Part shown: positions 4,726 through 11,673 of the stretch, piece by piece
Numbering within the stretch: position 1 is the first letter of the stretch
How the letters are laid out: the number at the start of each line of letters is the position of its first letter
Origin: Bacteroidota bacterium
GTDB taxonomy: Bacteria; Bacteroidota; Ignavibacteria; Ignavibacteriales; Ignavibacteriaceae
DNA length: 64,000 nt
Direction: 5' to 3'
Assembly: GCA_022564295.1 (NCBI GenBank)
Contig: JADFLR010000011.1
Span: 62,001-126,000, forward strand
Notes under the pieces: generated by a model
Told to the model about the DNA's origin: nothing
Seen by the model: only the letters and a program-made list of their open reading frames with translations
Databases searched by the model: none
Position numbers and translations under genes: made by a program

Positions 4726-6360
4726 TTATAATATCCGGGGGGAGTTGAGCTTAATATCTGAATATTTCCATGCTTCCTTAAATCTTTTTTGTACTTCAGC
4801 GGCTTTATTGTTCTCGTTCAGTTTTAGCAGTGCCTGGTGCAATCCATATAATGCCCAGCCGTTTTCAGGTAAATCACTTAAGTTTTCCTCAAAAACTTTC
4901 TGTGCTTCTTCGTATCTTCCTGTTTCAATTAAAACCGCACCAAGATTTAATCTGCAGGGATAAAACCATGTCGGCGGCTCATCGTAACTTAATGTGTTTT
5001 CAAGTTCAACTGCGCTTTGCAGATGCGAAATTGCCGTTGCATAATCTTTCTTTTTAGCAGCAAGTTCGCCGCTCAAAACTTCGTGCCCAATCTTAAGTAA
5101 AGTACCAGCAGAGTTTATTCCCCAAATAGAAAGGTCTTCAACACTTTTATTAAAACGAAGCTGTTCAAGTTCGGAAAGTTCTTTCTCAGCCTTTTCCAAA
5201 TCATCATTTGCAATAAAAGCCATTCCTCTTGCATAATGCCATACGCCTAACGGGTACAATTGTAACTTCTCTGGTTCTTGGTAGTTTAATATTTCCTCCC
5301 ATTTACCAAAAGTGACGTAAGCGTAAAGAGGAATTACAGCAAAGTGCTGAAGCGTTTTGTATCCGCAAAGATTCATTAAAGAATCGGGTTGCTGTTGTGA
5401 AGTTTTAAGTGCTGCAAAAATTGCTGTTTTGCTATCGCCTTCCAGAGAAGCGGTTGCCCAAAGAAAGTGATAGTTGTGAGGATAGTATGCGAGCGAGTAG
5501 AATCCCTGCTGGTTGCACTGGTTAATATATTCCTCATTCGATTTTACAGCCCGCAGGTTGGCAAGCGTACCTTCGTGATATTTGCCTGTTCTTATATAAA
5601 TATGTGCCGGCATATGAACAAGATGTCCTGCACCCGGTGCAAGAAATCTTAGTTTATCTGCGCTTGCATTTCCCCGTTCGGGATTTTTAGATGCTTCAAT
5701 CGCATGAATATACAAATGATTTGAACCATGATGATCCGGATTTTTTTCAATTACGCTTTCAAAAGTAGAGAGTATTTCACCCGTCCATGGCTGCTGTGTT
5801 CCATCTTTTAACCAGTAATCCCATGGATGAAGATCCATAACTGATTCGCCAAACATAGTTGCAGCATCAAGGTCATCAGGATATTTATCCTTCAGAATTC
5901 TCATTGCATCAGAGTATGCCTGATCAAGAGGGGTCCTGTCTTCAAGCTCTTCATTAGTGTATCTTTTTGAAAGAGCTATTACATAATCTTTTTCTCTTTG
6001 TGTTTCATTATCCAGTAACGAAATAGCTTTTTGTATTGCTTCATACGAGGTAGATACTGTGGCTGCGTCCATTGGCAGGTTTATGTTTGGTCCCAGCACA
6101 TAAGCCATACCCCAATATGCCATTGCACAATTCGAATCTAATCTTGCTGCCTCTTCAAACGATCGGAAAGATTCTTCATGATTAAAACCGTATGCAAGAA
6201 TTATTCCCTGGTTAATGTATTTCTGCGCAAGCTCTGAGTTAGTGGTTACAGGAAAATCCATTGTGCCAAGGTTATCAAATAACGGGGCTTGTTTATCCGT
6301 TTTTGTACCGCAGCCGATAAGTATAATTGATAGAAAGAATATTGTGATGGTATAACGCAT
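4726..6360 (-). CDS. TPR-repeat lipoprotein
   Basis: Lipobox-like LIIGCGT N-terminus; FEEAARLDSNCAMAYWGMAYVLG TPR-like repeats. Confidence 0.85.
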   Translation of the reverse strand: MRYTITIFFLSIILIGCGTKTDKQAPLFDNLGTMDFPVTTNSELAQKYINQGIILAYGFNHEESFRSFEEAARLDSNCAMAYWGMAYVLGPNINLPMDAATVSTSYEAIQKAISLLDNETQREKDYVIALSKRYTNEELEDRTPLDQAYSDAMRILKDKYPDDLDAATMFGESVMDLHPWDYWLKDGTQQPWTGEILSTFESVIEKNPDHHGSNHLYIHAIEASKNPERGNASADKLRFLAPGAGHLVHMPAHIYIRTGKYHEGTLANLRAVKSNEEYINQCNQQGFYSLAYYPHNYHFLWATASLEGDSKTAIFAALKTSQQQPDSLMNLCGYKTLQHFAVIPLYAYVTFGKWEEILNYQEPEKLQLYPLGVWHYARGMAFIANDDLEKAEKELSELEQLRFNKSVEDLSIWGINSAGTLLKIGHEVLSGELAAKKKDYATAISHLQSAVELENTLSYDEPPTWFYPCRLNLGAVLIETGRYEEAQKVFEENLSDLPENGWALYGLHQALLKLNENNKAAEVQKRFKEAWKYSDIKLNSPRIL

Positions 6361-6495
6361 AATTGCTTCGTGTAGTATTATTTCTTAACCCTTATAATGA
6401 AGAGCAGGAATATTAATGGAAAAGACGATTCAAATTTTCTTTATTGAAGCTACAAATATTAATAACCACCAGCAAAACATCGCTAACTGATTTCT

Positions 6496-6524
6496 ATATC
6501 ACAGAATAGTATTCTGTGTTGCAA
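6496..6524. repeat. REP-like palindrome, copy 2
   Basis: tatCACAGAATagtATTCTGTGttgc just 3' of the MOSC C-terminal ORF. Confidence 0.5.
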
Positions 6525-6535
6525 ATGTAATTTTT

Positions 6536-7168
6536 TTAATTTGTAATGTTGATTGTTATTTCATCACCCACATTTACCTTGCCGGTTCCTTCGGCAACCA
6601 GGTTCATCCCGAACATCACCTTGTTATCTTGTTGTCTGAAAGCAGCCAATGTTTTTAATGGTTCTTTACCTTTCACGCCCGTATTCTGATCGATGGTTGT
6701 AATAACACAACGCGGACAGGGTTTTGTGGAATGAAAAACCATATTGCCTATTTTAATAGTCTTCCAATTATCTTCATCAAAAGGGTTGCCGCTGTTAAAA
6801 ACAAAGTTTGTTCTGAAGCGGCTCATCGGAAGCTGTTTTTCCAAACGTTTGTTAAGATCGTTTAATGATTCTTCCCCTATAATTAAAAACGGATGGCTGT
6901 CTGCAAAACCAACCATTTTGTTATTTGCATATTTTGGGTCGACTTTTCTCTTTGTTGAGTCGGGCATATAAACCAGAAAGCATTTAAAACCGATTGCTTC
7001 CGTAAACCAATCATTAGCGTCGCTGTTGTATTTTAATGCGGTAATATTGTCTTGCCATATTTGTACGTTTATTGCTTCATCATCATAAGGCAAAGGACGG
7101 ATGTTTAATGAAGAAATTTTATTCTGTTTGTGTTTAATTGTGAGAAGATCATTATTAATTTCAACCAA
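6536..7168 (-). pseudogene. C-terminal part of a MOSC-domain protein, separated from its N-terminus by an insert
   Basis: VEINNDLLTIKHKQNK...CPRCVITTIDQNTGVKGKEPLKTLAAFR...FGMNLVAEGTGKVNVGDEI is MOSC core; N-terminal MOSC_N part lies at 9230..9418. Confidence 0.8.
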
Positions 7169-7177
7169 TAGCAGGAT

Positions 7178-7612
7178 TCATATGTGGGTTATCGTGGCAG
7201 CGGTTATTTTGGATAATCTGTCGGCAACAACCGAACGATGGCACTGTAAAGCATTGCTCTCATAACACATTAAACCAATGCTTGGCTTATTAAGCTGAGA
7301 GAGGAAATCCGTGATGATTTCAGAATTGTCGTCTAAATACTCTCCATAGACCTCCATACTATAATGTCCTTCTTTTCTCATGACCTGCATCAATGATTGT
7401 GGGGTTCCGAGGTTCTTATGATGCTCATATGCGATATTGTTCTCTTTCAACTTATCCTTCAGTTTCGTTTTAGAAAATCCAGTCTTTCTACTGTTCGCTC
7501 TTATCCTTACATCTATTAACAAATCAACTTTTTGACTTTTCAACAAATCAATAAACTCATCAATAGATCTTCCTTCATAACCTATTGTAAATATCTTCTT
7601 CAATATTCTCAT
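7178..7612 (-). CDS. DUF488-family protein
   Basis: IFTIGYEGRSIDEFIDLLKSQKVDLLIDVR, HHKNLGTP, LMCYESNALQCHRSVVADRL. Confidence 0.9.
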   Translation of the reverse strand: MRILKKIFTIGYEGRSIDEFIDLLKSQKVDLLIDVRIRANSRKTGFSKTKLKDKLKENNIAYEHHKNLGTPQSLMQVMRKEGHYSMEVYGEYLDDNSEIITDFLSQLNKPSIGLMCYESNALQCHRSVVADRLSKITAATITHI

Positions 7613-7684
7613 CTTATTATTTCTTTAATTCTGTTATGATAATGTTTTCTAAGTCCATGCAAGCGTTATCAGGATTACCCTACT

Positions 7685-8518
7685 TCATTCTTCATAGTCC
7701 TTAATTACAAAAGTAACTTTAGCTTTTGACCTAGGGTCATCTGATTTATCCTCAGCATCTATATCTAGCGGCAAGTTCAATATTATTCTCTTATGTTTTT
7801 GAGTATTTTCCCAAAGCTTTTTATCCATTTTTACATCGTCAGTCCTTCCTGACAGATGAATGTCTGCTAAATGGGCATCATGAGCTGACTCCATTTTTTT
7901 ATCACGATGCTGGCTTTTAGGTGTATATTGATAAACACTGTGCTTATTATATTTGCTTTTAAAATACTGCTTTGACTTTACAGTCATTGCTATTTCAGTG
8001 TATGGGCTTTGCCGAGTTTTGGCAAAAAAATCAAAATTTCCAAAGCCAAGTATCCAAGCAACAACCTCAGTTCCGATTTCCGTAGTTTTACCAATATTTA
8101 CATTTATCTTTATCAATGTGAAATTGGTAAGAGCTATCTTTTTAGATAAGATTTTCCATTTGGTTACTTTTTTTGCAATATCAACAAACTTTGTAAGGTC
8201 TTTATTACTTAAAACATCTGGCAAAATAATACTCAGGGCTTGGATGTTATTATCCTTCATTGAAGCTACTATCTCGCTATTAATTTTGTTTAGGAGTTCC
8301 TCACTTACTATGCCCTTAATACATATTCTTTTCCAATCAAATTGCTCTGGATTGCTAGACATTAATACCGCGTAATAACACCCTTGCTTTGCGCTTTTGT
8401 GCCACTCAGATTGCACACGTAGAACTTCTTCACATGTTGGCATAGAATCTTTAATTATGTTGTATTGGAGATTAGTATTGGGTGTAGTTGTCAGGGCAAG
8501 GAAGTCCTTCCCAATCAC
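7685..8518 (-). CDS. Protein of unknown function, insert cargo
   Basis: 277-aa ORF; VVAWILGFGNFDFFAKTRQSPYTEIAMTVK and AHLADIHL look like conserved-family segments; true start may be the internal ATG (MPTCEEV). Confidence 0.75.
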   Translation of the reverse strand: MIGKDFLALTTTPNTNLQYNIIKDSMPTCEEVLRVQSEWHKSAKQGCYYAVLMSSNPEQFDWKRICIKGIVSEELLNKINSEIVASMKDNNIQALSIILPDVLSNKDLTKFVDIAKKVTKWKILSKKIALTNFTLIKINVNIGKTTEIGTEVVAWILGFGNFDFFAKTRQSPYTEIAMTVKSKQYFKSKYNKHSVYQYTPKSQHRDKKMESAHDAHLADIHLSGRTDDVKMDKKLWENTQKHKRIILNLPLDIDAEDKSDDPRSKAKVTFVIKDYEE

Positions 8519-8885
8519 TTAGAATTGTGGAGGATACCTGAAATCCATGTGTATTGTACTTTGAGTTCAAGTCTTTTTGGATTTCCATATATTTATCCTC
8601 TGACTTTTCATCATCTACCTCTAGCCAAATCAAAAGGCAATTATCGTAAAAATCAAATCCCAATTTTGACTCTTTTAGTTTTAGATTTCTCTTCGAGGCT
8701 TCCTCAATATAATCCCTCATCATTAACTCTGCCACACGATGTTCAATTTCCTTCTTTTCCTCAAGGACATTGAGAGAGGAAATATCTGTTTTGCCACGCG
8801 AATTACTTTTAAGGGACTTGATATAATCAGCAATCCATTCAGAATTATTACTTTCTGATGGTGATGACAAGATTTCTTTGCTCAT
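8472..8885 (-). CDS. Protein of unknown function, insert cargo
   Basis: 137-aa ORF overlapping the 5' end of 7685..8518 by 47 bp in a different frame. Confidence 0.65.
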   Translation of the reverse strand: MSKEILSSPSESNNSEWIADYIKSLKSNSRGKTDISSLNVLEEKKEIEHRVAELMMRDYIEEASKRNLKLKESKLGFDFYDNCLLIWLEVDDEKSEDKYMEIQKDLNSKYNTHGFQVSSTILSDWEGLPCPDNYTQY

Positions 8886-9229
8886 TTGATAATTTATTTA
8901 GAGTAACTAGTTCTAAATAGGACACCTCTAAAAATTAATTTTGTCCAGTTTTTAATTAACGCAAATTTATATAATAAGTTTCTAAAAACCTAATTTTTCA
9001 CCCTCTTTTTTCTATCTATCTATCAGTGACTCACAATCAAGTGTTCTGAGGGTATAATCACCTAAATTTATGCGACCTTACTTTTTGCATTTGCTCATTA
9101 TACTTGAATCGTACTGTTAAATATCAAATCTCAATAATAATTACAAATAAGTTCCGCTTAAGAATTATCAATTTAGAACTTTGTTTTGTTTGTGCGTAAC
9201 TGTTAGAAGATTATTATTTCTGTCAACCT

Positions 9230-9418
9230 TTATAATGCCATTTGTGGAAAGGACCTCTGAGTAATAAAATGGTTCACTTCATCAACAAGCATCCACCTAC
9301 GGTCGTATTGCAAACCCCGCTCTTCAACTGCTGATGATTGAAGAGATATACCGCCAAGTGATTTTATGGGGTAGATATAAATACCGGTTATTTTATATTG
9401 GCTCACGCTGTTATTCAA
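9230..9418 (-). pseudogene. N-terminal MOSC_N fragment of the split MOSC gene
   Basis: ITGIYIYPIKSLGGISLQSSAVEERGLQYDRRWMLVDE...ITQRSFPQMAL then stop at the insert boundary. Confidence 0.85.
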
Positions 9419-9615
9419 GATTCATTAGACGGTTAGGAAATTACAATATTCAATCTCCAAATAACAAATAATAATCAAATTTAAATTGTCAAATCATAAA
9501 TTTAGAACGGTTTAGCGTATAATTAGCCCTAATAAAATAATTGGCAACATACTATAACATTATTCATTGAAAATTTAAATTTAGTTTTTGAGATTTGTTT
9601 GTTGTTTGAATTTTG

Positions 9616-10872
9616 CTATTTGTTATTTTGTATAGTTATAAGTGTAATTTCCGGCGTAGAATTATAACGCAACGGTGCAAGAGACATTCCCAGTCCGCGT
9701 GTTACGATCATCAGCATGCCCGCGTGACTGCTGGAAGCAGGCAGGTCACCAAACCAAAAGTCTCCCCGGATATATTTTGTTTCAATCATAGTTGGAGTTA
9801 ACTGTATAAAAGGAAATACCAGAGAAAGCTGACCACCATGTGTGTGCCCGCAAAGATAAAGATCAAAATGATTTTTCTGTGCGGCTTTAATAAGGTTTTT
9901 CCTCGGTTGATGAGTTAAGAAAATCTTTAAATCTCCTGTGCAGTTGGATGACAAGCTGTCTAACATTTCATCCTGCACTTTACCAACATAGGTGTTTGTA
10001 ACAAATGTAATCCCGACTTCAGCATCATCTACAGCAATAATTTTCTTTCCGTTGTCAATCATCGTTACATTATTAAGTTGCAAAGCATTTTTTATTTCCT
10101 TAATGCTTCTTTTGTAATCGTTCCTGTAAGCCCAGTTATCATGATCACCAACACAAGAGTAAACACCATACTTTGCTTTTAGCTTTCCGACTTCGCTTGC
10201 ACTTAACCCAATGTATTTTGGTCCTGTTGTTATAAAATCGCCTGCTATAAGAACAAGATCGGGATTAAGTTCATTTACCTTGCTTATAAAATTACTGAGC
10301 CGTCCTTCATCGGTATAATGATCCGCCTGAATATCCGAGATGAAAACGATTTTAAATTTATTAAGTTCATCAGGCAAACCCTCTTTTTTTAGCTCTACTG
10401 TTCTTACCGAAACAGTGTTGTAATCGTAGATAACTCTTATTGGAATGTAAATTATAAAGAATCCAACCAACACCAATGTAACTATCGATTGAACACGTAA
10501 AAACTTATCCCGATGTTTTCTGTAGTAAGGAAGCAGTATAAGTTTTAAGAAATCAATAATCAGAAAATATATTCCAACCTGGGTCATGAGAATGAAGAAA
10601 ATCCAGAATGGATATATCAGCAAGTAATCAATTATTTTATTATCAGGAGAAGAAACATATTCCCCTGACATTGCGAAATAAGTAAAAATGCCAACCAGCG
10701 CTATTGGATAAAGATTTATCCAGATAAGAAATATCCGTCTTATTACCGTATATTTTTTTTGATAATATTTTGGGAAGAGATTTCTTACTGAGAGATTGGT
10801 TTTCTTTATAAAGTATAACTCAACTGCAAGCAGTAAAGCTATTCCGATAAGGAGACGAAGTATAATCCACAT
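9616..10872 (-). CDS. Membrane-anchored metallophosphoesterase
   Basis: FISDIQADHY, AGDFIT, GDHDNWAY, LCGHTHGGQ metallophosphatase motifs after TM segments. Confidence 0.9.
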   Translation of the reverse strand: MWIILRLLIGIALLLAVELYFIKKTNLSVRNLFPKYYQKKYTVIRRIFLIWINLYPIALVGIFTYFAMSGEYVSSPDNKIIDYLLIYPFWIFFILMTQVGIYFLIIDFLKLILLPYYRKHRDKFLRVQSIVTLVLVGFFIIYIPIRVIYDYNTVSVRTVELKKEGLPDELNKFKIVFISDIQADHYTDEGRLSNFISKVNELNPDLVLIAGDFITTGPKYIGLSASEVGKLKAKYGVYSCVGDHDNWAYRNDYKRSIKEIKNALQLNNVTMIDNGKKIIAVDDAEVGITFVTNTYVGKVQDEMLDSLSSNCTGDLKIFLTHQPRKNLIKAAQKNHFDLYLCGHTHGGQLSLVFPFIQLTPTMIETKYIRGDFWFGDLPASSSHAGMLMIVTRGLGMSLAPLRYNSTPEITLITIQNNK

Positions 10873-10926
10873 TTAGCAAATAATTTTGTTTAAATAAAAA
10901 ATAATTTTATAACAAAATTTAGTTAA

Positions 10927-11673
10927 TTAAAATTCAATAACTTTTACACTTTGGACAAACGATAACATTCTCTGATGGTGAGTTCCTTTCCAGTAATTTT
11001 TTTTGCATGCCGGACATCGGGAGAATTCCATCTGGGACTTTGAGACTTTGGGAGGGAGATCATCAATTATTTCATTCTTAGAAATTGGTTTCAACACCGA
11101 GTTGCAGGTAATGCAGCGAGAAAATTCTTTAATATTATTTTTTAAATCAAAACGTTTTATTACTTCAATAACCTGTTCTTTAACTTTTGTGGTTCTTACC
11201 CAATAGCCATGGGTCACTTTACTGCGTTTGAGAATTCCTCTATCCCTTGTTAAAATTGCACGCTTTTCTGTTAATGAAAGATTTACAATTTTATCATCAT
11301 CGAAATCGTTTTTATAAAACACATCAAAGCCCATCATTCTTAAATAGCGCGTAAGCTTTCCTAAATGTACATCGGCAATAAACTTCGGTTCCCGTAATGG
11401 ATTTGGTCTTAAGTGTTGAACGTTTGTGATATCGAGTGATTCGAAAACCGGGTAAATAGATATATCATCACAATCATTAATCAAATAATCAAATCCAACA
11501 GATTTACCATTAATAAGAATCAAATCAACCTCTGTGTGTGGAACTCCTAATGATTCTATGACATCTTTCACTGAGGCACGGTCGATATATTCATGTGCAA
11601 ACCTAACTTTTCGTTTTTCTTCGGGAAGAAAGTCGTTTAATTCCTCGTAAAATCTAAAGTATATTCTGTGCAT
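10927..11673 (-). CDS. Mut7-C RNase-domain protein with N-terminal ubiquitin-like domain
   Basis: FIADVHLGKLTRYLRMMGFDVFYKNDFDDD, ILTRDRGILKR, CxxC pairs. Confidence 0.9.
   Translation of the reverse strand: MHRIYFRFYEELNDFLPEEKRKVRFAHEYIDRASVKDVIESLGVPHTEVDLILINGKSVGFDYLINDCDDISIYPVFESLDITNVQHLRPNPLREPKFIADVHLGKLTRYLRMMGFDVFYKNDFDDDKIVNLSLTEKRAILTRDRGILKRSKVTHGYWVRTTKVKEQVIEVIKRFDLKNNIKEFSRCITCNSVLKPISKNEIIDDLPPKVSKSQMEFSRCPACKKNYWKGTHHQRMLSFVQSVKVIEF

Follow-up and report, generated by a model that had tools for sequence, protein, structure and literature searches.

Chromosomal hotspots that lack mobile elements, with recombination at the flanking core genes, have been described (Oliveira et al. 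2017, PMC5635113), as has homology-facilitated illegitimate recombination, in which homology on one side and a non-homologous join on the other would leave a gene stub beside the cargo (PMC3240628). The locus analysed here resembles the former in its differing content at one place, its conserved flanking genes and its lack of a mobility gene, but one of the flanking genes is itself broken and only a handful of genomes are compared. It resembles the latter in the gene stub, but both MOSC copies are truncated here, so that one simple event would be insufficient unless the donor piece was already partial. Proteins of the MOSC_N-MOSC type (PF03476 and PF03473) are normally intact, as the original prediction for this locus had assumed in describing them as usually one polypeptide, and intact homologues of ~270 aa are present in many relatives. 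Both pieces found here align to them, whereas the only copy detected in this genome is in two pieces, and no intact MOSC gene was found in it by tblastn or homologue search. The locus is best read as recombination debris at a variable chromosomal spot and not as a clean cassette insertion.

The window, the whole stretch of 64,000 nucleotides that was analysed, carries the following features, given from the upstream to the downstream flank.

9616..10872, minus strand: upstream flank, metallophosphoesterase-like gene (MPE), named from sequence reading and not from a family search
9230..9418, minus strand: MOSC_A, 5' remnant of a MOSC_N-MOSC gene, 62 codons followed by TAA, from Pfam and alignment to intact relatives
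9177..9228, minus strand: tail of MOSC_A in the shifted frame, VDRNNNLLTVTHKQNK, copy 1 of a 52-nt direct repeat
7172..9176, minus strand: actual cargo of ~2.0 kb between the two MOSC copies, edges from local alignment and repeat search
8472..8885, minus strand: ORF-A, 137 aa, no Pfam family
7685..8518, minus strand: ORF-B, 277 aa from GTG, match to phrog_34888
7178..7612, minus strand: DUF488 protein, 144 aa, PF04343 (E 1.6e-24)
7115..7166, minus strand: start of MOSC_B, VEINNDLLTIKHKQNK, copy 2 of the direct repeat, 79% identical
6536..7168, minus strand: MOSC_B, 5'-truncated MOSC gene, 210 codons open from TTG
4726..6360, minus strand: downstream flank, 544-aa TPR-like gene, named from sequence reading

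The 62-aa ORF of MOSC_A matches MOSC_N (PF03476, E 5.5e-17, profile positions 3-57 of 119), in agreement with its earlier reading as a MOSC_N start. MOSC_B is the matching remainder, as had been proposed: MOSC_N continues in it (64-117 of 119, E 0.017), and it has a complete MOSC domain (PF03473, E 9.9e-26) and retains the CPRC motif. Its open frame, including the codons before TTG, comprises 213 codons, and its nearest homologue is in the relative G002 (76% at the amino acid level). The coordinates and ORFs of the original prediction are correct, and the frames of both pieces coincide, so that the join at 9232/7171 indeed gives an open frame. From this arrangement a recent, clean, in-frame capture of a three-gene cassette of 2,061 bp, a length divisible by 3, had been proposed.

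Alignment of the junctions with relatives revealed that MOSC homology extends ~55 bp inside the supposed insert, to about 9177, past a 1-nt deletion at codon 62 that produced the TAA ending the 62-aa ORF. The gene-strand sequence just within the supposed insert, GGTTGACAGAAATAATAATCTTCTAACAGTTACGCACAAACAAAACAAAG, is MOSC sequence. Past the one-base frameshift MOSC_A reads IKVDRNNNLLTVTHKQNK, which duplicates the start of MOSC_B, LVEINNDLLTIKHKQNK, and its protein continues in the shifted frame as KVDRNNNLLTVTHKQNK, the same part of the protein. The overlap of the halves measures ~18 codons (17-18), or 51-52 nt, and was shown in three ways. Local alignment gave the two stretches a score of 65, compared with at most 41 in 300 shuffles, a blind repeat search returned 7115-7166 and 9177-9228 as its top direct repeat (52 nt, 79% identical, spacing 2062), and tblastn with the extended 5' piece as query gave a separate match for the tail at contig positions 71180-71242. 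In a clean cassette insertion the gene halves would abut without overlap or duplication; here they overlap and share a duplicated stretch. The claim that 2,061 bp were inserted cleanly and in frame is incorrect, and the boundaries given for the insert are misplaced, the left edge lying near 9177 instead of at 9232 and the cargo proper being ~2.0 kb (about 7172-9176). The divisibility by 3 arose from where the frameshift happened to fall, and the TAT triplets offered as a possible 3-bp target duplication are not one, because one of the two edges was wrong. The one-base frameshift had hidden the overlap, and the insertion thus seemed clean and in frame. Aligning the halves to intact homologues was the check that the original prediction had itself proposed, with overlapping halves named as grounds for giving it up. 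What stands of it is an acquired cargo at an interrupted MOSC locus; its recent and clean entry into one gene does not, since the halves overlap and are diverged.

Within the 51-nt overlap, MOSC_A is identical to MOSC_B at 40/51 positions, MOSC_B to G002 at 44/51, and MOSC_A to G001 and G002 at 39/51 and 38/51, respectively. MOSC_A, which differs from MOSC_B at 11/51 sites, is as distant from it as from the genes of other species; the overlap is only 51-52 nt long, so that allele assignments rest on few sites and the resident copy cannot be told from 51 bases. Since the resemblance between the copies does not exceed that to the genes of other species, sequence comparison identifies MOSC_A and MOSC_B as two alleles or paralogues; they are not the ends of a single gene that was split recently. 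Over stretches that include the overlap, DNA identity to G002 is 82.8% for MOSC_A (9376-9181) and 82.9% for MOSC_B (7166-6495), and the neighbouring MPE gene, at 80.9%, is close to the ~83% of both pieces. The dN/dS ratio against G002 is about 0.23 for MOSC_B and about 0.22 for MOSC_A, the frame of the latter being restored for this comparison only. Conserved residues are retained in both pieces, their divergence from G002 is of the purifying type, and neither looks decayed. With purifying-type ratios in both pieces, the difference between A and B thus looks mostly older than the breakage. The tail of MOSC_A is closer to G001 (VDR.N, TTACGCAC) than is its first part, as might be left by a crossover near codon 62, but this is suggestive only.

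The MPE gene adjoins an intact MOSC gene in most relatives. A search of related genomes for the empty site, proposed as a further check, found the undisturbed arrangement: MPE is followed directly by MOSC, without cargo, in G003, G004 and G006 and, across the family and order, at L008, L010, L012, L013 and L017. Immediately upstream of MOSC_A lies DNA matching the spacer between MPE and MOSC in G004 (9462-9278, 76.8%), and thus MOSC_A sits in the common position. The 544-aa TPR-like gene is downstream of MOSC in G006 too. In G001 and G002, thrABC lies between MPE and MOSC; this thrABC-type operon (L044:6899-11643 and L046:1851-6590) is absent from most relatives, and its thrA-like gene is a single ORF of 814 codons in G001 but two ORFs in G002 (9199-9801 and 10012-11643). 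Loss of thrABC was set aside as a cause, as other threonine-synthase-like genes are present in this genome (G000) and nothing follows from it. A relic of the MOSC 3' end lies ~245 bp after the intact MOSC in G003, and another, which aligns with many gaps, lies in G033 just beyond the hydrolase-like gene (named from sequence reading) that follows its intact MOSC. Both relics represent the opposite gene end from the break in this genome. Beyond the relic in G003 is a gene resembling REP-associated (RAYT) transposases, again named from sequence reading. The interval holds nothing in G003, G004 and G006, thrABC in G001 and G002, the cargo in this genome and other ORFs in G033, and such differing content in one interval of relatives fits a chromosomal hotspot of gene turnover. 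The MPE-MOSC interval varies, and partial MOSC copies have been left behind on more than one occasion. No relative with two full tandem MOSC copies was found among those examined, nor was another genome with the same cargo or with tandem MOSC copies as an identical intermediate.

The cargo comprises three intact, co-oriented genes, ORF-A, ORF-B and DUF488, and a stretch of ~290 bp in which no gene was recognised (about 8886-9176). This gap has no match to an Rfam RNA, which ruled out a retron, riboswitch or other RNA there. As the original prediction stated, there is no transposase or integrase among the three ORFs between the MOSC pieces. Neither terminal nor inverted repeats were found by repeat search at the true cargo ends. 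A transposase with terminal inverted repeats, as in a transposon insertion, is absent, and in place of identical short direct repeats the edges bear copies that are 79% identical. No second DNA copy of the cargo was found in the genome beyond one 49-nt match of 80%. Since the site is free of cargo in relatives and ORF-B has no relatives in near kin or in the phylum sample, acquisition of the cargo inside the interrupted MOSC locus is supported.

Several explanations were weighed against these observations. The entry of a compact cassette into one MOSC gene, clean, recent and in frame, draws on the open frame across the join and on intact homologues of about equal length, but the 5' piece runs 17-18 codons past the proposed edge into the part covered by the 3' piece, in copies only ~78-79% identical; the overlap refutes this explanation unless it is an assembly error, and we regard it as very improbable. 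An assembly chimera, in which the alleles of two strains were joined around unrelated DNA, could be imagined in a draft assembly of 59 contigs. Against it, the reported contamination is low (0.24%), the cargo genes are intact and co-oriented, and the gene order of relatives is kept on both sides, which makes such a chimera highly unlikely.

Direct copies of one MOSC segment on either side of the cargo might also be produced by an element making a long (~50-80 bp) target duplication whose copies diverged afterwards. A fresh target-site duplication consists of identical copies. Here 11 of 51 sites differ, yet conserved residues and low dN/dS are maintained, for which neutral decay after insertion is an inadequate account, and transposase and terminal repeats are lacking; we give this route a slim chance. 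Ancestral tandem MOSC paralogues, with the cargo arriving between them and deletion taking the 3' part from the first copy and the 5' part from the second, have a small but appreciable chance of being the origin. Second partial MOSC copies do stand beside intact ones in G003 and G033, but two full copies in tandem are seen in none of the relatives examined, and the break points are separated by no more than ~18 codons, a closeness that independent deletions would not tend to produce.

The explanation that we favour, and hold to be reasonably probable, is that a recombination-prone accessory interval gained the cargo by MOSC-homology-assisted, partly illegitimate recombination, without a transposase of its own, by which two diverged MOSC copies, alleles or paralogues, were joined. 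The recombination-prone accessory site would be the MOSC-occupied interval behind the MPE gene. The three-gene cargo would have entered through short MOSC homology and at least one illegitimate join, without a transposase, and the event would have placed MOSC_A, with homology ending near codon 79, before the cargo and the 5'-truncated MOSC_B behind it. The 52-nt imperfect repeat would then be the leftover overlap of the two MOSC copies. The route might have been one crossover of the resident gene with a molecule that bore the cargo and a short stretch of MOSC, or else homology-facilitated illegitimate recombination at one of the ends; we infer both the route and the direction of events. A lost transposable element is possible.

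ORF-B probably starts at the ATG at 8443, which would give 252 aa beginning 28 nt after the ORF-A stop. It matches phrog_34888 (E 1.7e-6), the family of Cellulophaga phage phi17:2 gp004, and scores 34.4 bits against a 13-member profile of the gp004 family, with common motifs through to the C-terminus (GC..A..P...W, KTRQSP, AH and SKAKVTF-like). By profile and motifs, ORF-B is a predicted remote relative of this large-phage protein family; it differs from it in being longer, ~26% identical, chromosomal and without an adjoining UDG-like gene. A viral collection yielded 13 loci of phrog_34888 with one query and more by profile. The family occurs in viral contigs L069-L092, without a Pfam match (e.g. 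L068:1682-2230 and L068:2972-3409). In 15/17 distinct viral contigs a gene with an IGQAPP...PYDTT motif lies at most ~2.3 kb from the gp004 family gene, and the four such genes that were tested belong to the UDG superfamily (PF03167). This neighbourhood suggests a common role of the gp004 family and its UDG-superfamily neighbour in phage DNA-base metabolism or protection. Searches of Pfam and the PDB gave no relative. ORF-B has no relatives in 60 near kin, and of 398 genomes sampled across the phylum this one alone matches; two further matches there (E ~0.008) were judged to be chance. A pattern scan of genome and viral contigs found none, nor were there any in plasmids. A PNKP-phosphatase match (E 0.12) was rejected as noise, and the AlphaFold prediction of ORF-B made without relatives was unusable (mean pLDDT 65.9 for ORF-A, moderate, and 33.9 for ORF-B).

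ORF-A has one credible, distant relative in the same phylum, in G147 (E 1e-8). The gene that directly follows this relative matches HEPN weakly (E 0.045), and an IS1595-type transposase gene is nearby. In G147 (L126:6187-6738 and 5715-6257) the ORF-A relative overlaps the start of the HEPN-like gene, beside the transposase gene, and the two together look like a two-gene toxin-antitoxin-like pair. No ORF-A relatives were found in plasmids or phages. Its predicted structure gave no Foldseek match at E <= 0.001, and matches to designed helical PDB proteins were judged to be low-complexity helix matches.

The DUF488 protein scores 87.3 bits, above the curated cut-off of 22.2, with a full-length match to PF04343. 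It is only ~37-40% identical to its best relatives, which lack ORF-A and ORF-B in the neighbourhoods examined. Its only PADLOC matches are to candidate (PDC) models, which makes the defence label a candidate one, and we found no literature on DUF488 function. Elsewhere, a DUF488 gene is paired with a gene of ~275 aa in a recurrent two-gene unit (L127:6027-6482 and 6439-7257; L131:5566-7288; L132:4834-6592). This partner type, VxTxKTYP..S..Y.E.VCTAG...G.WIR(I/L)(Y/F)P(I/V)P(F/Y)R, is absent from the window cargo. The frame of MOSC_B starts directly behind the DUF488 TGA, in the same frame (DUF488-TGA-ATC-CTG-CTA-TTG, window 7166-7180), a coincidence expected by chance one time in three. Because the right-hand join sets MOSC_B immediately behind this stop, MOSC_B may be translated by re-initiation after DUF488; readthrough of the TGA would yield a DUF488-MOSC fusion.

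The cargo looks like an uncharacterised phage-conflict module of a defence or toxin-antitoxin-like kind, a function that we infer. More specifically, ORF-A could be the partner or antitoxin-like protein of differing effectors, HEPN-like in G147 and phage-gp004-like here, with DUF488 as the third component and the 5'-truncated MOSC_B recruited as a fourth operon gene, but we consider this full scheme rather unlikely.

The case is ordinary in kind, and its orphan cargo is moderately interesting. It indicates that what looks like a clean insertion in frame can turn out to be a recombination scar, and it is one example, worked through here, of cargo gained without a transposase at a core-gene interval, partial MOSC copies being present in two relatives. 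In addition, ORF-B, an orphan on the chromosome, is connected with a large-phage protein family that is uncharacterised and accompanies a UDG-like gene.
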